Shown here in pieces: positions 4,898 to 32,327 of a DNA stretch of 64,000 nt (the stretch's first letter is position 1; every line of letters starts with the position of its first letter). The stretch covers positions 496,001-560,000 of the forward strand of contig NZ_JAFNMJ010000001.1 in assembly GCF_026537325.1 (NCBI RefSeq), in the 5' to 3' direction. The stretch is from Bifidobacterium sp. B4142. GTDB lineage: Bacteria; Actinomycetota; Actinomycetes; Actinomycetales; Bifidobacteriaceae. The notes under the pieces were generated by a model. It saw only the letters and a list, made by a program, of their open reading frames with translations. It was not told the DNA's origin and did not search any database. Made by a program: the position numbers and the translations under genes.

Positions 4898-6901
4898 ATG
4901 GTGGACATCCAGGATGCAGGGCAGGCGCTGAAGCGGTATTTCGGATATGAGTCCTTTCGCCCAGGTCAAGAGGATTTGGTCAAGGCTATCCTGAATGGGC
5001 GGGACTGCCTGGGTGTTATGCCGACCGGGGCCGGCAAATCCATTTGCTATCAGATTCCTGCCACTCTTCTGGACGGTCTGACCATCGTCATCTCTCCCTT
5101 GGTTTCCCTGATGAAGGACCAGGTGGACGGGCTGGAGGACGCAGGCATCCAGGCCTCATTCGTCAATTCCACCCAGGACATGGATGAGCAGTCCCTGGCC
5201 CTGGCTCAGGCTGCACAAGGGCGCAGCAAGATCCTCTACGTGGCTCCCGAGCGGCTGGATGCCCCCAGATTCAGGGAATTCGCCCAGCATACAAAAATTT
5301 CCCTGCTGGCTGTGGACGAAGCCCACTGCGTATCCCAGTGGGGTCAGGACTTCCGCCCTGCCTACCTAGGCATCGGCGATTTCATCAGGTCCCTGCCCGA
5401 CCGACCTACGGTGGCAGCCTTCACTGCTACGGCGACCGAGAAGGTTCGGCGCGACATCGTATACATGCTGGGCCTTGACGATCCCTACGTGGCGGTGACG
5501 GGTTTCGACAGGCCCAACCTCTTCTTCGACGTGATCAAGTTGGAGAGCAAATACAAGAATCGCTGGGTGGTCCAGTACGCACTGAAGCATGGCGATGATT
5601 CTGGCATCGTCTACTGCGCCACCCGCAAGGAGACCGAGGCTCTGGCTGATGACCTGACCAAGGCCGGTGTCAGTGCTGTCAGCTACCACGCTGGCATGGA
5701 TGCTCAGAACAGGGAGCAGGCGCAACGGGACTTCGTCAACGACAAGGTGCAGGTGGTTGTGGCCACCAATGCCTTCGGCATGGGCATCGACAAGTCCAAC
5801 GTACGCTATGTCATTCATCACAATATGCCTGAGAGCATCGAGGCCTATTACCAGGAGGCCGGCAGAGCGGGACGTGACGGCGAGCCAGCCCGTTGCTCCC
5901 TGCTGTGGAACGAGAGCGACATCGTCACCCGCAGACGCCTGCTGGACATGGACAACGGCAACGACAGACTGACCGGTGAGCAGGCCGAAGCAGTCAGGGC
6001 CGAACACCGGCGTCTGCTCAACGTCATGATCGGTTACTGTCGAACCACCGGCTGCCTTCACCAGTACATGCTGCGGTATTTTGGCGAGGAGGTGGACCAG
6101 GCTGCCGCAGGTCTTTCGCCTGCCGAAGCCGACAAGGGCAAATCTGTCCCGGTCGGGCATCCTGACACCGGTAGCGGCGGCTGCCAGAACTGTTCCAACT
6201 GCCTGAGCACCTTCACGACCATCGACGTCAGCGATGTGGCCCGTGCCATCAGCAGGTGCGTTCATGATGTGAACCAGGGATTCGGCTCCGGCAAGATCGC
6301 GCAAATTCTTCGGGGATCGCGCTCGCAGGATCTTCTTCGGCGAGGGTTGGATCGGTGCCCTAGCTATGGTGCTCTGGACCAGGTTCCAGAGGCGCGAATC
6401 CGTGACGTGCTCAACCAGATGGCCTCGGACGGGTATCTGTATATCACTGAAGGGCGGCTGCCCATGGTTCATTTCGGACCCAAGGCCGCGCAGACGGTCA
6501 GTCCGGACTTCCATTACGAGATCAAGCGGACGGAACGCCCGCGTGCCTCGGGCAAGGTCTACGACGGCAGGTCTTCTTCGACTGTCGACGATGACGGTCT
6601 CGATCAGGCCGCTGCTAGCGATGCCAGCCCAGAGGATGAGGAACTTTTCCAGAAGTTGCGCGATCTGCGGACCAGCATAGCTCGCAAGATTGGCAAGCCT
6701 CCCTACATTGTCTTCTCCGACAAGGCACTGCGCGATATGTGCCGTCTTCGTCCGGCTGATGATTCAACCTTCTTGGCCGTCAATGGTGTGGGGCAGCACA
6801 AGCTGGAGCAGTATGGACCCCAGTTCATGGGTGTCATCTCCGAGTTTTCGGCCAGAGGAGGGGTGGATGTGGTCAGGGGCACTGCCGAATCTGATAGGTA
6901 G
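4898..6901 (+). CDS. recQ: ATP-dependent DNA helicase RecQ
   Basis: 3'-5' DNA helicase of recombination and fork repair. Motif I is PTGAGKS, motif II VDEAH followed by the aromatic-rich loop CVSQWGQDF, and motif VI QEAGRAGRDG. A zinc-binding module follows (Cys in GYCRTTGC and CQNCSNC), then an RQC winged helix near residues 430-510 and a C-terminal HRDC domain (last 80 residues, ending around GVGQHKLEQYG). Start ATG 4898 begins the conserved region; a TTG 60 bp upstream would only add an unconserved leader. About 667 residues, usual size. Confidence 0.93.
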   Translation: MVDIQDAGQALKRYFGYESFRPGQEDLVKAILNGRDCLGVMPTGAGKSICYQIPATLLDGLTIVISPLVSLMKDQVDGLEDAGIQASFVNSTQDMDEQSLALAQAAQGRSKILYVAPERLDAPRFREFAQHTKISLLAVDEAHCVSQWGQDFRPAYLGIGDFIRSLPDRPTVAAFTATATEKVRRDIVYMLGLDDPYVAVTGFDRPNLFFDVIKLESKYKNRWVVQYALKHGDDSGIVYCATRKETEALADDLTKAGVSAVSYHAGMDAQNREQAQRDFVNDKVQVVVATNAFGMGIDKSNVRYVIHHNMPESIEAYYQEAGRAGRDGEPARCSLLWNESDIVTRRRLLDMDNGNDRLTGEQAEAVRAEHRRLLNVMIGYCRTTGCLHQYMLRYFGEEVDQAAAGLSPAEADKGKSVPVGHPDTGSGGCQNCSNCLSTFTTIDVSDVARAISRCVHDVNQGFGSGKIAQILRGSRSQDLLRRGLDRCPSYGALDQVPEARIRDVLNQMASDGYLYITEGRLPMVHFGPKAAQTVSPDFHYEIKRTERPRASGKVYDGRSSSTVDDDGLDQAAASDASPEDEELFQKLRDLRTSIARKIGKPPYIVFSDKALRDMCRLRPADDSTFLAVNGVGQHKLEQYGPQFMGVISEFSARGGVDVVRGTAESDR

Positions 6902-9242: not shown

Positions 9243-10511
9243 TTAGGCTCCTTGCTTAAGACCTATGCGGCATCCGCGGAAGGCATACCAGGCGATGTAG
9301 AGGAATCCGGGTACGGTCACCAGCATGGCGATTTCGATGCCCATGGCATCCTGGATGGCACCCAACAGCAGTGGAATCAGGGCCGCTCCGACGATGCTCA
9401 TAACCAGCGCAGAAGAGCCGGTCTTGGCGTCGTTGCTCCTGATGCCCTTGAGCGTCAGCGAGAAGATCGTGGGGTAGCCGATCGATATGAACAGATAGGC
9501 AACCAGGAAGCATATGACCGAGAATCGTCCCAGACCCAGGAATACCAGAAGCATCAGCACGGCTGTGATGCACATGTAGACGCCCAGTATCTTACCGGCA
9601 TCGAATTTGGTCATCAACGGAGTGGTCAGGAACCGGCCAAGGGTGAACAGCAGCGACAGCAATGCCAACAATGTGGCAGCCAGACCGGCGGTGATGCCAG
9701 CGCCCCAGTGTTTGAGGGCATAAGCGGAGAACATGGCCATGCCCGCCACCTGCAAGCCAATAAAGATGAACTCGGCTATCACGCCCAGTACGAAGTAAGG
9801 GCGTTTCAGCAGGCTTGAGGTGCCGGAGCCGTTACCAGTTTTCCCTTCCTGCTCGTCATCGCCAGGTGGTGTTGGCAGTTTGAAGACGATGAATACAGCC
9901 AACACCAACAGCAGAACGATGCCGATGACGATATAGATCATCCTGGTGTCAGACAGGAACTTGACCTTGGCTTGCTCAAAGCCTGGCTCTTTTGGGGTCA
10001 GGGTTTTGGATAGCACTCTGCCCAAAATCAGAGGCCCCACCACGTTGCCGACGCCGTTGAAGCTCTGTGCCAGATTGAGTCTGAAGGATTCGCCTTTTTC
10101 ATCGCCCAGCTTGGTGACGTAGGGATTGCAGTTGGTCTCCAGAGATGAGGCTCCAAGCGCTACCACGAACATGGCGAACAGAAAGAGTCTGTAGCTGGCC
10201 ATATTTGTGGCCGGCACCACGATGAATGCTCCGACTGCGAACAGTATCAGTCCGGAGATGACCCCGCCCTTGTAACCGAAGCGCTTGGAGATGATTCCGG
10301 CTGGGATGGCCATGACGAAGTAGGCTCCGTAGTAGGCCACCTGCAGCAGTGATGCCTGGGTGCTGTTCAGCTCCATGTAGTTGCTGAATGGGCTGTTGAG
10401 GGCGTTGACCAGGTTCATGGTCAATCCCCAAATGAAGAAGAGTCCGATGACCAGGGTTATGGCGACGGTTGCCTTGGACCCGCCCTTGTTTCGCGTATTT
10501 GTATTATCCAT
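9243..10511 (-). CDS. MFS sugar permease, probable L-fucose:H+ symporter (FucP type)
   Basis: Twelve-helix major facilitator carrier with the FucP/GluP signature features: ALNSPFSNYMELNSTQASLLQ-type substrate loop in helices 1-2, and the ETNCNPYV segment near residue 130. The start MDNTNTRNKGG was chosen because the frame upstream is polar filler that overlaps the next gene. Only a weak Shine-Dalgarno is visible. It is flanked by lactonase and dehydrogenase genes, supporting L-fucose or another 6-deoxy sugar as substrate. Confidence 0.82.
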   Translation of the reverse strand: MDNTNTRNKGGSKATVAITLVIGLFFIWGLTMNLVNALNSPFSNYMELNSTQASLLQVAYYGAYFVMAIPAGIISKRFGYKGGVISGLILFAVGAFIVVPATNMASYRLFLFAMFVVALGASSLETNCNPYVTKLGDEKGESFRLNLAQSFNGVGNVVGPLILGRVLSKTLTPKEPGFEQAKVKFLSDTRMIYIVIGIVLLLVLAVFIVFKLPTPPGDDEQEGKTGNGSGTSSLLKRPYFVLGVIAEFIFIGLQVAGMAMFSAYALKHWGAGITAGLAATLLALLSLLFTLGRFLTTPLMTKFDAGKILGVYMCITAVLMLLVFLGLGRFSVICFLVAYLFISIGYPTIFSLTLKGIRSNDAKTGSSALVMSIVGAALIPLLLGAIQDAMGIEIAMLVTVPGFLYIAWYAFRGCRIGLKQGA

Positions 10512-10519
10512 GTCAGAGC

Positions 10520-11311
10520 TCAATTCAGTGCCCGGTCCAGGTGGACGTATCCGCCATCGACGAACACCCATTGGCCGGTGGTGTGTGATGCGCGATCAGA
10601 GAGCAGGAAGGTGGCGGTATTTCCGATTTCTTCGGGTGTGGTCATGCGATGCTCCAGAGGAATCTTGTCTGTGATGACCGACAGGCGTGCCTGCTGGGCC
10701 TCTTCATCGCCAAAGGTCTTGATCCAGTCAGCATAGAGCGGGGTCCAGCATTCCGAGACCACGATGGCATTCACTCGTACGTCATCATGGACCAAGGCCG
10801 CAGCCCATTCTCTGGTCAGGCCCAGAATCCCGCCCTTGGCTGCTGCATAGGCGCTGGTCTTGCCCTGACCGGTCACAGCGGTTTTGGAGGTGATGTTGAT
10901 GACTGATCCGTGGCTTTCCTTGAGGTAGGCACAAGAGGCGTGCATGAGTTCGTAGTAGTGGGTGAGATTGCCGTGTACGGAACGCTCGAACTCGCGCCAG
11001 TCAGTAGTTTCCAAAGCCTTGTTGTCGTTAACTCCAGCGTTGTTGACTATGCCATCGATATGACCGAATTCCTTGTGTACCTGCTCTACAATGGGTGCTA
11101 TGCCGTCGGTGTCATTCAGATCCAAAATGAAGGTCCGGTAGGTATCGGTATAGGCCTCGATGTCCTTGCAGAACTGGTCCCTGGCTGACTCGTCACGATC
11201 TATGACTGCGGTTATGGCACCCTCCTGGGCCAGTTGTAGGGTGATGCCCCTGCCGATGCCCTTAAAGCCACCGGTGATGATGAATACCTTGTTCTTGAGA
11301 TGCAGATCCAT
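10520..11311 (-). CDS. Short-chain dehydrogenase, probable L-fucose dehydrogenase
   Basis: Classical SDR with the cofactor motif TGGFKGIG at residues 13-20, NNAG at 90-93 and the catalytic Ser142, Tyr155, Lys159 (SAYAAAK). Role by context is oxidation of L-fucose to L-fuconolactone with NAD(P)+. The start at 11311 is fixed by AAAGGAG at ideal distance; a longer frame reaching the upstream gene's stop has no such signal. About 263 residues. Confidence 0.82.
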   Translation of the reverse strand: MDLHLKNKVFIITGGFKGIGRGITLQLAQEGAITAVIDRDESARDQFCKDIEAYTDTYRTFILDLNDTDGIAPIVEQVHKEFGHIDGIVNNAGVNDNKALETTDWREFERSVHGNLTHYYELMHASCAYLKESHGSVINITSKTAVTGQGKTSAYAAAKGGILGLTREWAAALVHDDVRVNAIVVSECWTPLYADWIKTFGDEEAQQARLSVITDKIPLEHRMTTPEEIGNTATFLLSDRASHTTGQWVFVDGGYVHLDRALN

Positions 11312-23386: not shown

Positions 23387-23718
23387 CTACTGCAGGGGCC
23401 GGTATTTTCGGCTGGAACCGCGCGAAGTGGCCACCGGATATCTGTCGGCCGTCCTTTGCAGTTTGTCCATGATGATTCGGTCCATGTCCAGATCCAGTCG
23501 ATCCGCCAGCTGGATGCAATGGGTGAGCACGTCAGCCAGTTCGTCGGTCACGTGGCCTTCATCTCCGTCCCTGGGATCATCCCCCCATTATAGCATTCCA
23601 GGAGCTCGGCAGCTTCGATGCAGATGGATTTGGCTAGGTTTGCGGGCGTGTGAAATTGATCCCAGTCGCGCTCGTGCACAAAATCCATCACTGCTGTTTC
23701 TGTTTCCTTGCTGATCAT
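23387..23718 (-). pseudogene. MazG-like NTP pyrophosphohydrolase gene with a frameshift
   Basis: Read on the minus strand from ATG 23718 it gives MISKETETAVMDFVHERDWD and then SICIEAAELLECY, a MazG-like nucleotide pyrophosphohydrolase start with its metal-binding EAAELLE. At the run of six G (plus-strand C) at 23581-23586 the frame runs into a TGA. Shifting frame by one base restores DDPRDGDEGHVTDELADVLT (the second E-x-x-D metal motif) down to a stop at 23387. One lost base (a seventh G, or the C of a CAA codon) explains this. It is either a true null allele or a sequencing error; total length would be about 110 residues. Confidence 0.75.
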
Positions 23719-24165
23719 GATTTCGAGCCTATCAGCCGGCTATCCTGCCATCATATTGGTGTGGGTTTGTGACATATATTGAGCCGCGTCAGTACCCATC
23801 TTAGGTGTATGGCGATAATGCGTTATTGCCTTGAATGGTCAGAGATGTTCTTCGATTAAGTGACCATAAATAGCTGCTGTTGTGGTAAAAATCTGTATCC
23901 TAGAATGTTAGCTAGGTTGACCTCAGACTGCCATAGCCCTCGTGCTGATGGCCATCAGTTGGTACTTTTGGCGATCATTCGAGCAGATGTGCTCAAGCAA
24001 TTGGTAATGGCTTATATAAGGGCTATCTATTCTCATCTTGTATTGCTAATAACTACGGTTTGGCATGCAGTTGGGCCTTATCAAGCCGAGAATGGAACCC
24101 GTAAAGGTTCAAAATGATGCTAGATTGTGAAACAGATTCGTCTGGACAAGTGGAGTGAGGCATCT
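23719..24165. other. AT-rich intergenic region with inverted repeat and possible promoter
   Basis: No convincing gene is seen. It contains an imperfect inverted repeat GGCGATAA-TGCG-TTATTGCC (23811-23830) and a promoter-like pair TTGGTA (24001-24006) and TATCTA (24024-24029) with a 17-bp spacer, which would drive the regulator gene downstream. A CAATTG sits next to the -35, half of the palindrome found upstream of the next gene. Base composition falls here and stays AT-richer to about 30.8 kb. Confidence 0.4.
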
Positions 24166-25269
24166 ATGGCGGTGACCAATCGCGAAGAACAGATATTGGG
24201 GTTGATCAGACAGAATCCGATGATTAGTCAGAACGAACTGGCTCACATTTGCGGCATCACTCGTTCCGGTGTTGCTGCGCATATATCCAATCTTGTGAAG
24301 AAAGGCTATTTGTTGGGAAAGGGGTATATAGTTTCACCGCCTACCTATGTCGCAGTGATAGGCGGGATCAACTTGGATATTTATGGTATGTCAGTCAATC
24401 CTGTCGTAAGCCATTCTTCTAATGTTGGGAAAATCACGTTCAGCCCTGGTGGCATAGGTCGTAATATTTCGTATGATTTGGGATGTTTGGGCGTAAAGAA
24501 TTATCTCTTATCAGTCTATGGAGACGATCACAACGGCGCGTTCTTCAAGAAAGATGCCATGGCTAATGGCCTTGACATAACATACTGTCAACAGCTGAGC
24601 AACACCCCAACTTCCACCTATTTGTCAGTCAGCGGTCCTGACGGAGACCCTATGGTGGGGTTGGATGACATGGCCAGCAGTGAGCTTATCAGCCCGACTT
24701 TTTTGCGTGAGCGTGCTCACATTATTGTTAATGCAAATGCTGTTGTTCTCGATTCCAGCTTAACAGCTGCTTCGATTGCCTGGATATGTGACCATTATTC
24801 TGGTCCGATCTATGCTCGAGTTGTTTCTGTCAATAAAGCTTCGCGTTTGATGCCCGTGTTGAACAGAATCGATACTTTGGTACTTAGTCGTGCTGAGTCG
24901 CAATTATTGACAAACACGGATGCTTCCGATGAACAAAGTGGTCAGTTTTGTGCTCGTTTCCTGCATGAAGCAGGAGTTCGCTGTGTATATCTGCTTATAG
25001 ATGGCGTGGGTAATCTATACAGCGATGGAAGCCAATACGTATTCTGTCCTGACGATCAAAGGACCAAGAGCAGACACAATAACGGCGCAGCCTCAGCTGC
25101 CTTGTCTGCTCTTCTTTGGTCCCATAGCAAGAAAATGGGCTACCGGGACTGTGCGGAGACTGCATATGCTGCGGCTGCTATGGCCATGGACTGCGTCCAG
25201 TCAGTCAATCCGAGTCTGAGCCCGAAAGCCTTGGAGGCTCGTCGCCATTCGTTTTTTGCACGAGAGTAA
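24166..25269 (+). CDS. Winged-HTH regulator fused to a catalytically degenerate PsuK-like (PfkB) domain
   Basis: Residues 1-55 form a winged helix (EEQILGLIRQNPMISQNELA, then GITRSGVAAHISNLVKKGYL). Residues 61-367 are a PfkB sugar-kinase fold closest to pseudouridine kinase: GGINLDIYG, a NVGKITFSPGGIGRN segment, VGLDDMASSELI. The catalytic GAGD signature is replaced by NGAAS (about residue 307-311), so the base Asp is lost and kinase activity is unlikely; the domain probably senses a nucleoside or its phosphate. I chose ATG 24166 (GAGTGAGG ahead) over a GTG at 24127. It likely controls the next operon. Confidence 0.8.
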   Translation: MAVTNREEQILGLIRQNPMISQNELAHICGITRSGVAAHISNLVKKGYLLGKGYIVSPPTYVAVIGGINLDIYGMSVNPVVSHSSNVGKITFSPGGIGRNISYDLGCLGVKNYLLSVYGDDHNGAFFKKDAMANGLDITYCQQLSNTPTSTYLSVSGPDGDPMVGLDDMASSELISPTFLRERAHIIVNANAVVLDSSLTAASIAWICDHYSGPIYARVVSVNKASRLMPVLNRIDTLVLSRAESQLLTNTDASDEQSGQFCARFLHEAGVRCVYLLIDGVGNLYSDGSQYVFCPDDQRTKSRHNNGAASAALSALLWSHSKKMGYRDCAETAYAAAAMAMDCVQSVNPSLSPKALEARRHSFFARE

Positions 25270-25362
25270 TCAGCTGTCATTAAGTTCCAGCCATAGATCT
25301 TTTTCACGCAGCAAACCCAGACTCCTCTCGTAGAGCGGCATCAATGCCGATTTTCAATCCAT

Positions 25363-25391
25363 TTGACAGCGAAGCGAGTCTTCCTTATCAT
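25363..25391 (+). promoter_or_regulatory. Consensus promoter of the kinase operon
   Basis: TTGACA (25363-25368), 17-bp spacer, TATCAT (25386-25391). The expected start point is near 25398, exactly where the first palindrome begins. Confidence 0.7.
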
Positions 25392-25397
25392 ACAAGT

Positions 25398-25427
25398 AAC
25401 AATTGTTTATAGAGTAAAACAATTGTT
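25398..25427. promoter_or_regulatory. Two identical palindromic operators 20 bp apart
   Basis: AACAATTGTT at 25398-25407 and again at 25418-25427, each a perfect 10-bp palindrome, centre-to-centre distance exactly two helical turns. Location at and just after the transcription start fits repression by a dimer-of-dimers, presumably the HTH-PsuK fusion encoded upstream. Confidence 0.65.
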
Positions 25428-25469
25428 GGTTGTGTCTATGAACGCAACTATGCAAGGAGGCTGGTTTCA

Positions 25470-26444
25470 ATGGTGGATTTCGCAAAGTGCTTATGCGACA
25501 CCAATCGATATGTTGTCGTTATAGGTGGCATGAATATGGACATTTGTGGACGTCCGAATACTGCCATCGTAGATCGTGATTCAAATCCAGGGAAAGTAAG
25601 CTTGTCGGTTGGCGGGGTTGGACAAAATATGGCGCAATCCCTTGCCTGCCTTGATGTTCCCACATACTTGGTGACTGTTTATGGCAATGATGCCAACGGG
25701 CGAGTCATGGAGCGGACCTGTCGGGAAAAAGGCATCCATCTGGAATATTCGCAACGTCTAGATGATTACAGATCGTCGACTTACATGTTTATTACAGATG
25801 AAACGGGCGATATGCTCGTTGCGGTCAATGACATGGATATCTGCAAACAAATCACACCTTCATTCCTGAAGACCCGTCTTGATTTTGTCAACGGGGCTGC
25901 AATTTGTCTTTTGGATGCGAATCTAGCGCCTGAAACCATGGAGTGGATAGGTAGAAACGTAACGGCGCCGCTTTTCGGCGATACCGTCTCGACTGTTAAG
26001 GCGGATCATTTCCTGCCCATTCTTAATAAAATGAGTGTGCTTAAGCCCAATGCGATCGAAGCGGGAAAGCTAAGCGGCATAGATATACACGACAAAGCCT
26101 CTGCTGAAGAGGGAGCTGCCTGGCTTTTGGACAAAGGCGTCAAAACCGTATATATATCCTTGGGAGCAGAAGGCATTTTGTGTGCTTCCCGGACTTCCGG
26201 GACGGAGGAAATGGTTCACGTTCCGCCTTACCCGACGGCCATAGTTACGGCGAATGGGGCCGGAGACACAGGAATGGCTGCTATTGCATGGAGTTACTTC
26301 GATGACCCGAATCGTCCTATACGAGATGTAGGCCGCATAGCTCAGGCAGCCTCCAGCATTGCGCTGGAATGCACCAAGGCGGTTCCTGATATCGATGTGC
26401 AAAAGATACGTGACAAGATGTCCGCACCCTTAGTTGTTGCATGA
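25470..26444 (+). CDS. PfkB-family kinase, pseudouridine-kinase-like
   Basis: Sugar or nucleoside 5'-kinase. Family marks are GGMNMDICG, the DSNPGK motif and GGVGQN shared with E. coli PsuK, LVAVNDMD in the middle, VLKPNAIEAGKLSG, and the intact catalytic NGAGDT near residue 270. 324 residues. AAGGAGG precedes the ATG. PsuK normally works with the C-glycosidase PsuG, but no PsuG is in the window; the neighbours are a TrpF-like protein, an Fe-ADH and a nucleoside hydrolase. Substrate could be pseudouridine, another nucleoside or ribose. Confidence 0.82.
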   Translation: MVDFAKCLCDTNRYVVVIGGMNMDICGRPNTAIVDRDSNPGKVSLSVGGVGQNMAQSLACLDVPTYLVTVYGNDANGRVMERTCREKGIHLEYSQRLDDYRSSTYMFITDETGDMLVAVNDMDICKQITPSFLKTRLDFVNGAAICLLDANLAPETMEWIGRNVTAPLFGDTVSTVKADHFLPILNKMSVLKPNAIEAGKLSGIDIHDKASAEEGAAWLLDKGVKTVYISLGAEGILCASRTSGTEEMVHVPPYPTAIVTANGAGDTGMAAIAWSYFDDPNRPIRDVGRIAQAASSIALECTKAVPDIDVQKIRDKMSAPLVVA

Positions 26445-26489
26445 ACAAATGGTTTTACCACACGGCGAATTTGTCAGTAAAGGAGAACA

Positions 26490-27185
26490 ATGGTAGTCAA
26501 GCAACTCTATTCCATCATTCATTATGATGAAAGCATTAAAACCATGGAGGCAGGTGCCGATCATATTGGATTGGTGCCCATGCAGAATGGTGGCGTACCT
26601 GCTCAAAGGGTCCCATTGGATCGAGTTCACAAGATTTTCGACGAATGCAGGAACCGCGGAGTGAAAGCAGTGGCCATCATGCTGACCAATGACCCTGACG
26701 AGATGATCGAACTAGCCAAACTCATACAGCCTGACATCCTTCATATCGCCGGTGATGGGTATGAGGCCGATAAAACCTTTGCCGAACGGTTGAAAAATGT
26801 CGCGCCCACCACAAAGCTTATGCAGGCTGTGCTGGTTAACGATGAATCAGCTGTTGCGCGTGCCAAGCGTCTAGCGGATTTCTGCGATTTCATACTCACG
26901 GATTCCGGTCTGGCCCCAGATACGGGCATAGGTGCCAGCGGGCAGACCCATGACTGGAATATCGATGCACGCATTGTCGAGGAATGCGGAAAACCGGTCA
27001 TCATGGCTGGAGGGCTCGGTCCAGATAACGTAGCGGATGCAATAAGAAAATGCAGGCCATATGGCGTGGATTCGCTCACTAAAACAAGTATCAAGTTCCA
27101 GGACGGGTACATGCAGAAGGATATCGACAAAGTTCGTGAATTTTGCAAAAATGCAGACCGCGCGGCCGCAGAAGTAGGTTGCTGA
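26490..27185 (+). CDS. TrpF-like phosphoribosyl isomerase-fold protein, catalytic Cys absent
   Basis: (beta/alpha)8 barrel related to phosphoribosylanthranilate isomerase: EAGADHIGLV at the first turn, FILTDSG with the Asp138 that matches the catalytic Asp, GASGQTHDW, and the phosphate loop MAGGLGPDNVADAI. Aligned without gaps to the N-terminus of Thermotoga TrpF, the catalytic Cys7 is Tyr7 here. It is 231 residues against about 205 in TrpF. With no trp genes near and a kinase upstream, I infer an isomerase for another phosphoribosyl compound. AAAGGAG precedes the ATG. Confidence 0.75.
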   Translation: MVVKQLYSIIHYDESIKTMEAGADHIGLVPMQNGGVPAQRVPLDRVHKIFDECRNRGVKAVAIMLTNDPDEMIELAKLIQPDILHIAGDGYEADKTFAERLKNVAPTTKLMQAVLVNDESAVARAKRLADFCDFILTDSGLAPDTGIGASGQTHDWNIDARIVEECGKPVIMAGGLGPDNVADAIRKCRPYGVDSLTKTSIKFQDGYMQKDIDKVREFCKNADRAAAEVGC

Positions 27186-27187
27186 TT

Positions 27188-28345
27188 ATGCAATATAAGT
27201 TGCTGCAGCGTGTAAAGGTCGTCTCCACTGATGATTTGGGCGAAACCCTAAAAGAGATACTTCAGACCGAATCATACAAGCGGCCCTTGGTAATAACCGA
27301 TCATTTTGTATCAACAATGCCCCTAGTCGTCAAGGCTCTAGATTGGCTTCGCTCATGTGGAATCGCGGTTTCAGTCTACAACAATGTCGGTTCCGATCCT
27401 GCCGAGGGAACAGTAAACGATGCTTTTCTGGCTTTCAAGCAGCATAATGCAGATAGCTTGATTGCCATTGGTGGAGGAAGTTCCATGGATGTGGCTCGCG
27501 GAGTCAACATCGTCAGAACCAATGGTGGAGACATTCTGAATTACACTGATCCGACCAGGCCAATTTCACCCTGCCGTGGCCAGATCAGCGTTCCTACCAC
27601 TGCCGGCACCGGAAGTGAAATGTCCAATGCTCTTGTCGTTACTGATGAATCGTCAAAGACAAAGGTGACCATTTTAGCGGATCCTGCCGTCAGCGAATAT
27701 GCCGTGCTCAATCCTGAATTGACCCTGTCTTTGCCTCCTGCAATGACCATCGCCTGCGGCCTTGATGCCTTCGGTCATGCGGCGGAAGGATATCTGTCTC
27801 GTCAATCAAGCCCCGTAACCGATGCGATTTGCGAAAAAGTCATGTACCTGCTGTACCAATACCTGCCACGTGCTGTGCATGAGGGGAACGATATAGAGGC
27901 TAGAGAACGGGTTATGGTGGCCGCGAACCTGGCCGGTTGGATGCTGAACAATACAGGTACGATCGTCGGTCATTCCATCGCTCATGTGCTCGGTTCCCGA
28001 TACCACATCATCCACGGTGAAGCTGTGGCTTACGCCCTCCCTGCAGTCATGGAGTTTGTAAGCCCGGTTCGTCCTAAGAAAATACGCGAGATTGGTCAGA
28101 TTCTAGGAGCTTCTTATCCTGAATCCGCGCCCCCGGAGCAGACAACGGTTCTGGCAGTACGAGCCTTCAAGGTTTTCCGGGATAACATACTTGGAATGCG
28201 TCCATTCGATACCTACCAGATAGATCGTAAGGAACTGCTGAGCAATGCTTCAGCTGTTGCCAATGAGCGTTTCGCCGGCAATACGCCCCGTACGGTTGAT
28301 GAGGCAGCAGCCGGTGATCTTCTCGAAGGTTTCGGAACTCGATGA
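27188..28345 (+). CDS. Iron-containing alcohol dehydrogenase
   Basis: Group III metal-dependent alcohol dehydrogenase. It has the NAD-binding GGGSSMDVARG near residue 98, VPTTAGTGSEMSN, and metal ligands in LDAFGHAAEGY (Asp, His) and GHSIAHVLG with HIIHGEAVA (His, His). About 385 residues, normal length. ATG 27188 follows the previous stop by two bases, so it is in the same operon. By context it may reduce or oxidise a sugar-derived aldehyde or ketose; the true substrate is unknown. Confidence 0.85.
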   Translation: MQYKLLQRVKVVSTDDLGETLKEILQTESYKRPLVITDHFVSTMPLVVKALDWLRSCGIAVSVYNNVGSDPAEGTVNDAFLAFKQHNADSLIAIGGGSSMDVARGVNIVRTNGGDILNYTDPTRPISPCRGQISVPTTAGTGSEMSNALVVTDESSKTKVTILADPAVSEYAVLNPELTLSLPPAMTIACGLDAFGHAAEGYLSRQSSPVTDAICEKVMYLLYQYLPRAVHEGNDIEARERVMVAANLAGWMLNNTGTIVGHSIAHVLGSRYHIIHGEAVAYALPAVMEFVSPVRPKKIREIGQILGASYPESAPPEQTTVLAVRAFKVFRDNILGMRPFDTYQIDRKELLSNASAVANERFAGNTPRTVDEAAAGDLLEGFGTR

Positions 28346-28382
28346 TTATCATCATGCAATAAGTAAAGAACGGAGAACGTTG

Positions 28383-29324
28383 ATGAAACGGAAAGTTATT
28401 TTGGATTCTGACCCCGGCCATGACGATGCTGTGGCGATTCTCTTGGCTGTCGGCAGTCAGGCGATTGATCTTTTAGGCGTCACTACGGTAGGCGGCAATC
28501 AGAGCCTTGACAAGGTGACATACAATGCCAGGGCTGTGCTTGAAATGGCACATGCGACGGATGTGCCAGTGCATGCTGGGTGCGACAGACCATTGGTTCG
28601 CCCTCAGGAAGTCGCTGCCTCCATTCATGGTGAGACAGGCCTGGATGGCGTCACGTTGCCAGAACCGACCCGTCCGCTGGATGCTGGTCACGCCGTCGAC
28701 TGGATCATTGACACGGTAATGAAAAATGAACCAGATACTATAACTTTGGTCCCTACCGGTCCGCTGACCAACATCGCAATGGCCGCCCGCAAGGAACCGC
28801 GGATAGTCGAACGGGTCAAGGAAGTCGTCCTTATGGGCGGTGGCTATCATGTCGGTAACTGGAGTGCTGTTGCTGAGTTCAATATCAAAGTGGATCCGGA
28901 GGCTGCACATGTGGTTTTCAATGAGCCATGGCCGGTCACTATGGTCGGTTTGGATTTGACCCATCAGGCCCTCTGTACTCCAGAGGTTCAGAAGCGCATA
29001 GAAGGCGTTGGAACTGATTTGGCCCATTTCGTTAGTGGACTCATGGACTTCTTCAGGAAATCCTACAAAGACAACCAGGCGTTCGTCGACCCTCCCGTTC
29101 ATGACCCCTGCACAATTGCGTATCTGATTAATCCAAACATCGTCAAGACTCATCGCTGCCCAGTTGATATCGAGCTGAGAGGAGAGCTGACGACCGGGAT
29201 GACCGTGGCGGATCTGCGTGGTCCGGAACCCAGTCCTGAAGATTGCCATACTCAGGTTGCCGTGAAGCTGGACTTCGACGGTTTCTGGAACCTGATTATT
29301 GATGCCATCGAAAAGATAGGATGA
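28383..29324 (+). CDS. Nucleoside hydrolase (inosine-uridine type)
   Basis: Hydrolyses N-glycosidic bonds of ribonucleosides to base and ribose. The calcium-binding DSDPGHDD is at residues 8-15, then LVPTGPLTNIA, MGGGYHVGNW with AEFNIKVDPEAAH, and the catalytic-site His in PPVHDPC near residue 240. 313 residues. Start chosen at ATG 28383 (MKRKVILDSD) where conservation begins, with CGGAG ahead. It belongs to the same operon as the kinase. Confidence 0.88.
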   Translation: MKRKVILDSDPGHDDAVAILLAVGSQAIDLLGVTTVGGNQSLDKVTYNARAVLEMAHATDVPVHAGCDRPLVRPQEVAASIHGETGLDGVTLPEPTRPLDAGHAVDWIIDTVMKNEPDTITLVPTGPLTNIAMAARKEPRIVERVKEVVLMGGGYHVGNWSAVAEFNIKVDPEAAHVVFNEPWPVTMVGLDLTHQALCTPEVQKRIEGVGTDLAHFVSGLMDFFRKSYKDNQAFVDPPVHDPCTIAYLINPNIVKTHRCPVDIELRGELTTGMTVADLRGPEPSPEDCHTQVAVKLDFDGFWNLIIDAIEKIG

Positions 29325-29327
29325 GCG

Positions 29328-30740
29328 ATGACTAAGGAATCCTCTAAAATCCTTGATCAGGGCGGCAAGTCAATTGTTGCCCTGATGACGGCCCTGATGG
29401 CTGCCGTCTTCGCTTTCCAGCTCAATGCTTCCATGCTCTCTCCCGCGCTGACGACTATGGAGCATGAGTTGCATACTACGAGTTCTCAAATCGGACTTTC
29501 TCAGACGGTATTCTTCACCTCTTGCGCTGTCTTCTCGCTCTTCCTTCCTAGATTGGGTGACCTGGTCGGCCGCAAGAAGGTGCTTTCGGGCATCCTGGTT
29601 CTAACCGCCATTGGCTGTGTGATTTCGGCCTTTGCGCCCAACGTGCTCGTGCTTATGATCGGACGAGTCGTTCAAGGGGTTGCAGGCCCTGTTGTCCCTA
29701 TGACGTTGATTATGTTGCACGCGCAGGTTACAGAAGATTCTAGGTACGCCAGGCTCATGTCCATTCTCACCGCCGTAAATGGCGGCATCGGCGGGGTTGA
29801 TGCCTTGCTGGGCGGATGGTTGGCCGGGACCTTCGGTTTTCGCTCAGTATTTTGGTTTATGGTTGCTGTTGCCGTATTGGCCATCATACTGGTCGCCGCT
29901 TTTGCCCAAGAAAGTCACGCAGCACAGACACCGCGCATGGACTGGGCTGGCGTGATATTTCTTTGTATTGCATTCGTTTGCGCGTATTTCGCCATCAATG
30001 AGGCCGAGAAACTGGCTGCGGCCAACTGGTTTATGGTATGCATTGAATTGGTGGTAGCTGCACTGTTCTTCGTGATCTTCTGGAATACGGAGAAGAGAAG
30101 CAAAGCTCCTATGGTGACAACAGCTTATCTGAAGCAACGGCGTACTTGGGGGCTTTTGCTGACCACATTGACCACAATGGTAGGCGTCTTCGCAATCATG
30201 AATGGAGTGGTACCCGCGCTGGCTCAGGATTCCAAAGTCGGTGCCGGAATGAGTGCCAGTGTGGTTTCGTTTGCGACTTTGACTCCATATGCGCTCGTCG
30301 GTTTGGCTTTTGGACCTGTTGCCGGGATACTGGCATCAAAATATGGGTATCACAAGGTACTTCGTGCAGGTCAGCTGGTGAGCATAGTAGGTGTTGTTTT
30401 CGGCATTTATGTTTGTCTGTCGCCAAGCGTCTGGTCTCTGGTGGTGATGTCACTGCTTCTGGGTGTTTCATACGCGGGAACGGTCAATATCATGCTGAAT
30501 GGCCTCGGTGTGGTGCTTTCGCCGGCTGACAATACCGGGTATCTTCCGGGGTTGAACTCAGGCGGATTTAATCTAGGAGCCGGGCTGAGTTACGCCGTAC
30601 TATACGCCATAATGAACCTTGTAGCCGGTACGTCCGGCGCTCAGGCAGGTTACGTCTCCTCCATGATCGGCTCTGCTGTCCTTCTGGTCCTTGCGTTCCT
30701 TTGCTCTTTCCTCATTCCAAAGCAGGATGAGGTCCAATAG
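29328..30740 (+). CDS. MFS transporter, DHA2-like
   Basis: Major facilitator protein of 470 residues with 12-14 helices. The motif A loop reads LGDLVGRKKVL, and motif C-like GPVVPMTLI follows. It looks like the drug/proton antiporter-2 class, but position at the end of a nucleoside-type operon suggests uptake or export of a nucleoside or product. It starts three bases after the previous stop (another ATG overlaps that stop at 29321). Confidence 0.8.
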   Translation: MTKESSKILDQGGKSIVALMTALMAAVFAFQLNASMLSPALTTMEHELHTTSSQIGLSQTVFFTSCAVFSLFLPRLGDLVGRKKVLSGILVLTAIGCVISAFAPNVLVLMIGRVVQGVAGPVVPMTLIMLHAQVTEDSRYARLMSILTAVNGGIGGVDALLGGWLAGTFGFRSVFWFMVAVAVLAIILVAAFAQESHAAQTPRMDWAGVIFLCIAFVCAYFAINEAEKLAAANWFMVCIELVVAALFFVIFWNTEKRSKAPMVTTAYLKQRRTWGLLLTTLTTMVGVFAIMNGVVPALAQDSKVGAGMSASVVSFATLTPYALVGLAFGPVAGILASKYGYHKVLRAGQLVSIVGVVFGIYVCLSPSVWSLVVMSLLLGVSYAGTVNIMLNGLGVVLSPADNTGYLPGLNSGGFNLGAGLSYAVLYAIMNLVAGTSGAQAGYVSSMIGSAVLLVLAFLCSFLIPKQDEVQ

Positions 30741-30932
30741 ACATTGGACGCACTGGCAGCAGTTTTGTTGGCCTTGTTCAGCTTGAGATTAAGAAAGATA
30801 GTTCAGGACGGCAAGATTGCGTCCTTGTAATTCGTTCTTAAACATTTGGAAGCTATCGGCGATGAAAAGGTGTTTGGCATCATTGCGATTCCCGATCCGG
30901 AGCGAATGAGCGACAGGTAGTATTGCGCCGAT

Positions 30933-30971
30933 AGGGGTCCTGCGAATGCATGGATTCGCAGGACCCCTTTC
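30933..30971 (+). terminator. Strong hairpin terminator after the MFS gene
   Basis: Perfect 15-bp stem, arms 30933-30947 (AGGGGTCCTGCGAAT) and 30954-30968, 6-nt loop, followed by TTTCT. Between 30741 and 30930 no gene is recognised. Confidence 0.8.
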
Positions 30972-31060
30972 TGTGCCTTGCGGGTATCCGACAAGAGTCG
31001 GAAGTCGGGGCCAGACAGGCTAGCGGCCAGTAGGCCCCGATAAGCCGACCGTAGGCACAG
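30971..31060 (+). ncRNA. Candidate structured RNA leader (three-way junction) upstream of the SLC13 carrier
   Basis: Nested perfect helices: outer CTGTGCCT (30971-30978) with AGGCACAG (31053-31060); hairpin TCCGAC-AAGA-GTCGGA (30987-31002); hairpin TCGGGGCC (31005-31012) with GGCCCCGA (31033-31040). Together they form a closed three-way junction. A further GCGCC/GGCGC hairpin lies between it and the carrier's ribosome site. Similar 18-bp segments, GCGCC..AGGGGTCCTG, flank it at 30925-30942 and 31073-31090. It may be a cis-regulatory RNA or a small mobile repeat; I do not recognise a known riboswitch. Confidence 0.4.
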
Positions 31061-31145
31061 CAGCGGAAAATAGCGCCATGAGGGGTCCTGTAAGCCTCTG
31101 TCAGGCGCGTAAACTAAGTGAGGAATTCGTTCGCCGGAGGTGACC

Positions 31146-32327
31146 ATGCAACATCGGGTGATCGGGCTGCTGAAAAACGAGACCGTTCTGGTTGTCGCGG
31201 CAGTCATCGCTCTCATATCCTGCATCCTCATTCCTCCCGACAGGCAGTATCTGGGCTATATCCATGTCAATACCCTCACCCAGCTGGGTTCTCTGATGAT
31301 GGTGGTCTGCGGCTTTCAGCGCATCGGGGTCTTCCACGCCATTGGCGCCGGCCTGCTGAGTCGTGTCCGCTCGGTGCGGGGCCTGGCTTTGGTTCTGGTT
31401 TCCCTGCCTTTCTTCTCCAGCATGTTCATCACGAACGATGTAGCCCTGGTTACCTTTGTGCCCTTCGCCATTGCTGTTCTCATCATGGCTGGTTTGGAAA
31501 GCCATGCTCTGCTGATCGTCACCCTGATGACGTTGGGCGCCAATGTGGGCAGCATGCTAACGCCCATCGGCAACGCCCACAACTTATATCTCAAGGCCCG
31601 CTCCGAGATGCCTACTGGTGAGTTCCTCTTCCTTATGGTGCCTTATGCCCTGGTCGCTGCCCTGATGCTCTTCCTGTGCTGCTGGTTTGCCTTCAGGAAT
31701 CGGCATCTTAACAAGTTCGAGGGCATGGATCCGCAGGAGATTCGCCGCAGCGTATTGGCGCCCAGGGAGGATGAGATACAGCCTCAGGTGAAAGAGATGC
31801 AGCAGTCCAGCGGCTGGCGCATCGCCATCTACCTCCTTCTCTTTCTTGTCTGCCTGCTGGGCGTGGCCAAACTGATATCCCAATGGGTTATGGTTTTGGT
31901 GGTAGCGGTGACCTTCTTGATCTGCGATAGGGGGGTCTTTCTGCATGTAGATTGGGGACTCCTGCTGACCTTCGTGGCTTTCTTCGTTTTCATCGGCAAT
32001 GCGAGGAGGATTCCCCAGTTTTATAACCTGGTCAGCGGCCTGGTCAATATCCATCCTCTGATTACCTCGGTCCTGTGCAGCCAGGTCATCAGCAATGTGC
32101 CCACAGCCCTTCTGGTCTCAGGTTTTTCGACAGCCTGGCACCCGATCATTCTTGGCACCAACCTGGGCGGGCTCGGAACCTTGGTCGCTTCGATGGCCTC
32201 GCTGATTTCCTACAAGGCCGTAGTCAAGCAGTATCCGGGCAAGAAAGGCGAGTACCTGAAAATCTACACCGTTTTTAATCTGCTCTTCCTCGTCGTGTTG
32301 CTTGGCATGGCCCTGCTGCTGGAGTAG
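31146..32327 (+). CDS. SLC13/ArsB-type anion transporter
   Basis: Membrane carrier of the ion-transporter superfamily, with about ten hydrophobic helices and the repeated MFITNDVALVTFVPFA and GANVGSMLTPIGNAHNL segments, where the two re-entrant loops of this fold bind anion and sodium; the second half repeats as SNVPTALLVSG. 393 residues. GGAGG at 31136-31140 fixes ATG 31146. Substrate may be a dicarboxylate, sulfate or arsenite; not decidable here. Confidence 0.78.
   Translation: MQHRVIGLLKNETVLVVAAVIALISCILIPPDRQYLGYIHVNTLTQLGSLMMVVCGFQRIGVFHAIGAGLLSRVRSVRGLALVLVSLPFFSSMFITNDVALVTFVPFAIAVLIMAGLESHALLIVTLMTLGANVGSMLTPIGNAHNLYLKARSEMPTGEFLFLMVPYALVAALMLFLCCWFAFRNRHLNKFEGMDPQEIRRSVLAPREDEIQPQVKEMQQSSGWRIAIYLLLFLVCLLGVAKLISQWVMVLVVAVTFLICDRGVFLHVDWGLLLTFVAFFVFIGNARRIPQFYNLVSGLVNIHPLITSVLCSQVISNVPTALLVSGFSTAWHPIILGTNLGGLGTLVASMASLISYKAVVKQYPGKKGEYLKIYTVFNLLFLVVLLGMALLLE

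Follow-up and report, generated by a model that had tools for sequence, protein, structure and literature searches.

A conserved module of a PsuK-type kinase, a TrpF-fold protein, and an alcohol dehydrogenase in Bifidobacterium: a candidate variant of the pseudouridine pathway

The DNA analyzed here (the window) is a stretch of 64,000 nucleotides from Bifidobacterium sp. B4142 (contig NZ_JAFNMJ010000001.1, positions 496,001 to 560,000). At positions 24166-30740, it carries six open reading frames on the plus strand, encoding, in this order, a helix-turn-helix (HTH) domain fused to a PfkB-type fold (HTH-PfkB), a PfkB-family kinase, a TrpF-fold protein (referred to as the barrel), an iron-dependent alcohol dehydrogenase (Fe-ADH), a nucleoside hydrolase, and a carrier of the major facilitator superfamily (MFS) (Table 1). 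The kinase, the barrel, and Fe-ADH form a separate conserved module. This module probably represents a variant of the pseudouridine pathway in which the TrpF-fold enzyme and the dehydrogenase replace PsuG, with lower confidence attached to any exact reaction. The entire cluster is best explained as a pyrimidine nucleoside operon with two arms, one for uridine and one for pseudouridine.

Table 1. Predicted genes and sites of the cluster (positions in the window)
Feature	Position	Strand	Match or remark
HTH-PfkB, putative sensor/regulator: winged HTH joined to a kinase fold lacking the catalytic Asp	24166-25269	+	PF13412 + PF00294
Sigma-70-like promoter of the catabolic operon	25363-25391	+	TTGACA-17-TATCAT, 11/12 matches, consensus match only
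Candidate tandem operator, AACAATTGTT x2, 20 bases apart	25398-25427 (copies at 25398, 25418)	.	Directly behind the -10 box
Putative pseudouridine kinase of the PsuK type	25470-26444	+	PfkB fold, PF00294 (125 bits), GAGD intact
TrpF-fold enzyme, putative substitute for PsuG on pseudouridine 5'-phosphate	26490-27185	+	PF00697
Fe-ADH (FucO/EutG group), proposed reductase of the carbonyl product	27188-28345	+	PF00465 + PF25137
UriH, putative uridine/cytidine nucleoside hydrolase	28383-29324 (best start, ATG 28383)	+	PF01156
UriT, putative nucleoside carrier, MFS family	29328-30740	+	NF052222

The intergenic gaps from the kinase onward (45, 2, 37, and 3 bases) are compatible with a single operon. 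An earlier sequence-only reading of this DNA had listed the same genes in the same order and direction, with an intact GAGD motif in the kinase and a single promoter in front of it, and all of this is borne out. One strong sigma-70-like site is seen before the kinase, and the 3 such sites over positions 23700-31200 represent no excess over shuffled sequences (mean, 8.3). The statement that PsuG is lacking holds as well, also for a psuG gene elsewhere in the genome: PsuG (PF04227) was not found in the whole genome of this strain, which is 2.22 Mb and 99.95% complete.

The module, its kinase, and the exchange of partners

Relatives of the TrpF-like protein were taken as the best 80 of 137 found in a scan of one genome per species (84,980 species). 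Loci of the window type (L051-L082; n = 32) come from Bifidobacteriaceae, Lactobacillaceae, Vagococcus, Streptococcus catagoni, Mobilisporobacter, Velocimicrobium, an uncultured Eubacterium, and others. An ADH gene is found near the barrel in all 32 loci, and the kinase is found in 31, with the barrel directly behind it; the 32nd contig (L080) ends before the kinase. HTH-PfkB is present in 27 loci, UriT in 6, and a nucleoside hydrolase in 20; of the 12 loci without a hydrolase, 5 lie close to the end of their contig. Thirteen loci have a CNT nucleoside carrier, and 14, from Lactobacillaceae, have a membrane protein that no Pfam model matches. Thus, a check for a conserved neighborhood of five families succeeds for the kinase, the barrel, and ADH (31-32/32) but not for the hydrolase (20/32) and UriT (6/32). 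The sequence-only reading had placed the hydrolase and the carrier in the same pathway as the other genes, which is not supported: they correspond to the uridine-use proteins UriH and UriT and are inconstant companions of the module.

Two loci display unusual arrangements. In Bifidobacterium dolichotidis (L055; L037:9695-15895), ADH is followed not by UriH and UriT but by a 1,135-amino-acid protein, which by eye we take to be Cas9-like. The plasmid copy of the module in Limosilactobacillus mucosae (L131:8001-9850) appears to be decaying: the barrel match lacks the first 33 residues, ADH is annotated as two fragments, and tnpB and transposase genes lie close by.

In Escherichia coli, pseudouridine is phosphorylated by PsuK and then split by PsuG (PMC9247573). 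The E. coli kinase (EcPsuK; 7vkp) is the nearest solved relative of the kinase in the window (P0002), at 173 bits and 34% identity (101/294 aligned residues), whereas ribokinases score at most 69 bits. Among the 15 models listed, the best is PRK09850, the NCBIfam PsuK equivalog, at 191.6 bits, which does not reach its cut-off of 540; the ribose 1-phosphate kinase model NF053626 gives 38.2 bits and likewise falls short of its cut-off (330). The base contacts described for EcPsuK are Tyr97, Met114, Asn143, Val166, Ser167, and Lys170, together with Ser30, which is contributed by the second subunit and lies near N1; the ribose contacts are Asn14, Asp16, Gly41, and Asn45, and the catalytic residue is Asp256 (PMC9247573). 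All seven base contacts (S30, Y97, M114, N143, V166, S167, and K170) and all four ribose contacts are identical to those of EcPsuK in 32/32 kinases (the window and 31 loci, some from closely related strains), and the catalytic GAGD is found in each of them. The base-contact set is found in none of the 38 kinases of a paralogous module (PfkB2; see below).

The retention of the uracil-binding residues disfavors an alternative raised by the sequence-only reading, namely, that the kinase acts on ribose or an N-glycoside. The related explanation that the kinase uses uridine, cytidine, or another N-riboside, with the barrel carrying out an Amadori rearrangement, would suit TrpF chemistry, the substrate of which is an N-phosphoriboside, and UriH and UriT indicate that uridine is handled here. 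This explanation is nevertheless very improbable. Chemical reasoning indicates that N1 of uridine has neither a hydrogen nor a free pair for the Amadori step, and the pocket that is kept here, Ser30 included, is that of EcPsuK, which showed no activity on uridine (PMC9247573).

Kinases with this pocket are found next to either of two partners. The Mobilisporobacter family (397 genomes) contains 19 P0002-like kinases at E <= 1e-30, 13 of them with the full SYMNVSK pocket and the active site; 12 of these 13 adjoin PsuG, and 1, from Mobilisporobacter, adjoins a TrpF-like protein and ADH. In Lactobacillales (395 genomes), 20 pocket kinases were scored, of which 15 adjoin a TrpF-like protein, 1 adjoins PsuG, and 4 adjoin neither (34 matches were listed, 30 with loci; the other four, including the HTH-PfkB proteins of L195 and L196, were left unscored). 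Over both samples, 16 of the 33 active pocket kinases adjoin the barrel, 13 adjoin PsuG, 4 have neither neighbor, and none has both. Neighbors were mostly checked within 1.5 kb per side, with a wider span for the four partnerless kinases, L178, and three others, and PsuG identity was Pfam-confirmed for three PsuG-linked loci. Most PsuG-linked loci also have an HTH of the same type in front of the kinase. Outside the count of 13, L154 (pocket SYMGVSY) also adjoins PsuG; L155, L156, L157, and L159 have Asp at position 143, with no partner found, and L158 is a dead HTH-PfkB. The four PsuK-pocket kinases with neither PsuG nor a TrpF-like protein nearby (L190, L191, L192, and L193) each adjoin a likely CNT-type nucleoside carrier, a label given by eye from its likeness to a Pfam-identified protein of L057.

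The kinase tree points in the same direction. It has 114 tips, with 3 of the 38 PfkB2 kinases as the outgroup and columns with at least 40% gaps trimmed, and holds some kinases twice (e.g., L141 is that of L072, and L161 is from the genome of L064). The TrpF-linked kinases and the four partnerless ones form a single clade (support, 0.978), whose sister is the HTH-PfkB clade. The two jointly (0.995) nest in a grade made up of 13 PsuG-linked kinases out of 15. The simplest history would consist of one switch from PsuG to the TrpF-like protein and ADH, plus a duplication that left a dead sensor copy. Pocket identity, neighbor exchange, and nesting in the PsuG-linked grade suggest that the barrel most likely takes the place of PsuG. 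The earlier proposal that the barrel and the dehydrogenase process the phosphorylated product without PsuG is supported by these three lines of evidence (32/32, 16/13/4/0, and the tree), except that it had included the hydrolase and the carrier, which belong to uridine use.

The same exchange data would also fit a barrel that is a plain PsuG analogue, cleaving pseudouridine 5'-phosphate to uracil and ribose 5-phosphate, with ADH having some other task, and the barrel does retain an acid at O4' and the phosphate-binding motifs. This option is distinctly unlikely: ADH, which is found in 32/32 loci, would be left without a role, and PsuG employs a lysine, whereas none on the active side is conserved in the barrel family.

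The TrpF-like barrel and the proposed reaction

The barrel scores 47.1 bits against PF00697 (PRAI), above the cut-off of 22.7, but misses the NCBIfam cut-offs for phosphoribosylanthranilate (PRA) isomerase equivalogs, the best model giving 82.4 bits against its cut-off of 215. The family alignment leaves out ten loci that repeat family loci (L051-L056, L068, L114, L125, and L128). In TrpF, Cys7 acts as the general base and Asp126 as the general acid. The position of the catalytic Cys7 is occupied by Tyr7 in 35/35 barrels of the window type, whereas three bifidobacterial TrpF proteins in the same alignment have Cys. Asp126 is kept as D138 (35/35), Gln81 of the "QLHG" motif is replaced by His85 (35/35), and the AGG[LM] loop and Asp194 of TrpF are kept. 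His154, Ser195, and Thr199 are new relative to TrpF and fixed in barrels of the window type.

With its catalytic Cys replaced by Tyr, the barrel is, on the evidence of the alignment, not a PRA isomerase. That it is an ordinary one, as databases name it, in an accidental location has a probability close to nil: the Pfam match and the plasmid records that label homologues as PRA isomerase stand against the substitution in all 35 barrels, the further changed positions, equivalog scores far below the cut-offs, and the tight linkage to the kinase and ADH.

A Schiff-base aldolase acting through K198 (TKTS, strand beta 8) was considered as a family-wide mechanism and dropped because this lysine is missing from most members of the paralogous module and from many remote members. 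Nor is K140 found throughout the family, and K210, which nearly all members keep, is also present in TrpF.

TrpF opens the ring of a 5-phosphoriboside with an acid at O4'. In the pseudouridine arm of the operon, pseudouridine would be taken up and then phosphorylated at the 5' position by the PfkB kinase, as suggested by its binding site. The barrel would open the ribose ring of pseudouridine 5'-phosphate, with Asp138 acting as the acid on O4' and the uracil N1-H pushing electrons through C6=C5, so that the C1'-O4' bond opens as in TrpF chemistry. The ring-opened intermediate would be rearranged or cleaved by the barrel to a carbonyl product, which Fe-ADH would reduce with NAD(P)H. Two branches are envisaged from this intermediate. 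In the preferred one, removal of H-O3' would lead to a vinylogous retro-aldol split into glyceraldehyde 3-phosphate and uracil-5-yl-acetaldehyde, and ADH would convert the latter to 5-(2-hydroxyethyl)uracil. On chemical grounds, an aldehyde product would explain the constant presence of ADH. In the Amadori branch, which is about as likely, removal of H-C2' would give the ketone 1-deoxy-1-(uracil-5-yl)ribulose 5-phosphate. Taken as a specific reaction, C-C cleavage of pseudouridine 5'-phosphate by a TrpF-fold enzyme through ring opening and a vinylogous retro-aldol step, with ADH reducing uracil-5-yl-acetaldehyde, is put forward only tentatively.

Several observations weigh against a PsuG-replacing pathway. 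PsuG is found in only 1 of 189 Bifidobacteriaceae genomes and in 0 of 301 genomes of the Levilactobacillus family; since it is nearly absent from both families anyway, its absence from the 35 genomes with the module (25 of them without a completeness figure) alone says little. The active-side lysines K140 and K198 are kept in only part of the barrel family. This family is also found beside kinases that lack the pocket (PfkB2 near 32 of 39 loci of a second barrel type, TrpFl2), often with nucleoside hydrolases, so that its general substrate may be another riboside, and the hydrolase near 20 of the 32 window-type loci would fit a ribose pathway as well. Four pocket kinases (L167, L171, L177, and L181) have no partner, which means that the pocket does not determine the partner. 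In the kinase tree, EcPsuK and L178, which is linked to PsuG, are placed outside the main grade, with low support (0.37-0.56). Finally, each neighbor sample includes its center genome (G192 and G191), picked for having the module; without these two, the tally is 14 for the barrel, 13 for PsuG, 4 for neither, and 0 for both (G193, G204, G208, and G213 also recur from the scan for barrel relatives).

The lone PsuG among the 189 Bifidobacteriaceae genomes (L140:1501-2373) comes from an assembly that is 76% complete and could be contamination.

Regulator, uridine arm, and wider family

In the HTH-PfkB protein of the window, GAAS replaces GAGD, and this loss of the catalytic Asp indicates a sensor, not a kinase. 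The "HTH-PsuK regulator" of the sequence-only reading is present upstream, albeit in a catalytically dead form. The catalytic Asp is absent in 28/28 HTH-PfkB proteins (the window and 27 loci), all of which keep the ribose-contact residues; all seven base-contact residues are kept in 11 of the 28, and the copy in the window keeps 6 of 7. HTH-PfkB is most likely a nucleoside sensor descended from a kinase. It would sense a nucleoside and repress at the tandem operator, although for both the ligand and the site this is what we infer. The uridine operon of Corynebacterium glutamicum differs in being regulated by UriR, which is of the LacI type.

The AACAATTGTT tandem pair is the sole such pair in the window. 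A pair of the form AACANNTGTT, with at most 1 mismatch per site and a spacing of 19-21 bases, is found upstream of the kinase in 14/35 loci (13/34 when L035 and L054, which are the same, are counted once), compared to a mean of 0.02 and a maximum of 1 in shuffles of two-base blocks, which are not exact dinucleotide shuffles. The model was built on the window, so its match there is not independent, and was relaxed after a first, stricter pass that had given 11/35 loci (shuffle mean, 0.075). A simple count of CAATTG upstream of the kinase gave a weak signal, in contrast to the 14/35 of the two-site model with spacing. A weaker pair is seen in 2 of 14 PsuG-type loci and beside 0 of 4 partnerless kinases.

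In Fe-ADH, Asp and His positions align with those of methanol dehydrogenases and are presumably the metal ligands. Its score against the FucO lactaldehyde reductase model (TIGR02638) is 213.8 bits, below the cut-off of 523.

The hydrolase and the carrier pass the cut-offs of their NCBIfam models, with 545.3 bits for UriH (NF052221; cut-off, 450) and 649.7 bits for UriT (NF052222; cut-off, 600), and the hydrolase scores 587 bits against the solved "Cytidine/uridine-specific hydrolase" 6ba0. In C. glutamicum, a ribokinase, a uridine transporter, and a uridine-preferring hydrolase are encoded in one operon (PMC3146418). Together, these scores and that operon suggest that the operon in the window very likely serves to hydrolyze uridine and probably also cytidine. 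In this arm, UriT would import uridine and probably cytidine, and UriH would split them into base and ribose.

The uridine arm opens up a rather unlikely reading of the entire operon as a ribose route, in which UriH would free ribose, the kinase would convert it to ribose 5-phosphate, the barrel would serve as an aldolase or isomerase, and ADH would reduce glycolaldehyde to ethylene glycol, by analogy with the pathway of halophilic archaea. UriH and UriT do sit in the operon, the ADH group includes FucO, and a haloarchaeal plasmid groups a Bmp-type ABC carrier, a TrpF-like protein, PfkB, and a nucleoside hydrolase; ethylene glycol is a known end product from guanosine in haloarchaea (PMC9700705). 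In addition, two genomes with the module (G191 and G204) show neither a class II aldolase nor DeoC, so that C-C cleavage there would need another enzyme. However, none of the listed uracil contacts of PsuK is lost from the kinase (32/32), which scores 173 bits against PsuK versus at most 69 against ribokinases, an isomerase would be redundant given RpiA in 23 of 26 module genomes, and the hydrolase is absent near 12 of the 32 loci (five on contigs ending nearby).

Two specific versions of such a role were rejected: a substitute ribose 5-phosphate isomerase, as RpiA is already present in those 23 genomes, and a ribulose 1-phosphate aldolase route with FucA, as 4 of the 27 module genomes examined (G189, G191, G204, and G206) showed no class II aldolase. 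The genome of the window encodes two class II aldolases (PF00596) elsewhere.

The paralogous module comprises TrpFl2, PfkB2, a UriH-like hydrolase, a PGP-like HAD phosphatase, a YqhD-like ADH, a CD3073-family ECF transporter, and a LacI-ribokinase fusion. Near the 39 TrpFl2 loci, the kinase is found in 32, ADH in 21, the phosphatase in 21, the hydrolase in 27, and the ECF S component in 19. Relatives of the barrel are also found in Chloroflexi. On rhizobial plasmids, the barrel lies beside an RpiR regulator, a sugar ABC carrier, a kinase, and an aminotransferase. A plasmid of the haloarchaeon Halostella pelagica (L132:8004-13232) encodes the barrel, PfkB, a nucleoside hydrolase, and a Bmp-type ABC carrier, including its substrate-binding protein, in close spacing. 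The paralogous, rhizobial, and Halostella contexts would also fit a rival reading in which the family acts on ribose phosphates.

Some members of the wider family stand apart. The paralogous cluster with the ECF transporter is found at L040-L046 and L110-L130, in several loci with the LacI-ribokinase fusion as the regulator. The clostridial locus L084 encodes two different TrpF-like proteins (9992-10678 and 5487-6188), the second directly before a YqhD-like ADH and with Asn in place of the conserved His154. On the Corynebacterium aurimucosum plasmid pET44827 (L135:7992-14344), a TrpF-like protein in which Ala occupies the catalytic position is encoded next to upp, a large AMP-binding protein, a tautomerase, and a pseudouridine-5'-phosphate glycosidase, in what resembles a biosynthetic cluster; the same TrpF-like/upp pair is found in Agrobacterium vitis (L134).

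Among the matches listed, the closest TrpF-like protein is that of Bifidobacterium asteroides ESL0199 (94%). Close homologues (73-100% identity) are found in 10 of 189 genomes of the family, its own included, and in the tree of TrpF-like proteins the Bifidobacteriaceae are sister to 15 of 16 Lactobacillaceae (support, 0.949). The G+C content over the cluster is 0.47-0.53, versus about 0.60 at 13-20 kb and 35-38 kb; the dip already starts near 20 kb and there is another at 38-41 kb, so that it is not specific to the cluster. Along with the dip, the count of homologues and the tree fit transfer between Bifidobacteriaceae and Lactobacillaceae in one direction or the other, which is plausible. The earlier suggestion of transfer can thus be retained, although the AT-rich composition on which it was based is not confined to the cluster.

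Significance and comparison with known systems

Pseudouridine is abundant in RNA, and when Bifidobacteriaceae and the Levilactobacillus family were sampled, PsuG was found in only 1 of 490 genomes. The module offers a concrete candidate answer to how the gut and food bacteria that carry it handle pseudouridine. If the retro-aldol reading is correct, it would add a new enzymatic reaction and a new route by which lactic acid bacteria, bifidobacteria, and clostridia break down pseudouridine. The barrel would then be the first of its family to be described, and this family, with members in Chloroflexi, rhizobia, and haloarchaea, may act on further ribosides. The module would also show how the PRA isomerase fold was reused on a C-nucleoside and call for caution with genes annotated as PRA isomerase, e.g., in plasmid records, some of which would be something else. 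In the open-licence literature (subscription papers were outside the search), nothing on this cluster was found.

Compared to TrpF, the barrel shares the fold family, the general-acid Asp, and the phosphate-binding loop but has Tyr for the general-base Cys, His for Gln, and the new His154, Ser195, and Thr199. The likeness to the E. coli PsuK-PsuG system lies in the kinase family and its nucleoside pocket, with the 12 PsuG-adjoining kinases of the Mobilisporobacter family among the nearest relatives; the difference is that the window has a TrpF-fold protein and Fe-ADH where PsuG would be. The C. glutamicum uridine operon is matched by UriH and UriT, both above the NCBIfam cut-offs, whereas the window has a PsuK-like kinase instead of a ribokinase, a TrpF-like protein and ADH in addition, and HTH-PfkB as the regulator in place of UriR. 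A ribonucleoside hydrolase and a carrier are also shared with the bifidobacterial RbsR nucleoside regulons, which include rihC, rihT, and iunH (PMC4746261); in the accessible text of that source, a ribokinase is named, and TrpF-like, PsuK-like, and ADH genes are not.

The non-carboxylating pentose bisphosphate pathway of halophilic archaea converts guanosine to ethylene glycol (PMC9700705). The six genes of the cluster include no ribose 1,5-bisphosphate isomerase, HAD-type ribulose 1,5-bisphosphate phosphatase, or FucA, and the kinase pocket is of the PsuK type. Under the ribose-route explanation only, the two would have in common a PfkB-type kinase, C-C cleavage, and an aldehyde reductase acting on the ribose of a nucleoside, and the haloarchaeal route appears to be the nearest described parallel found.

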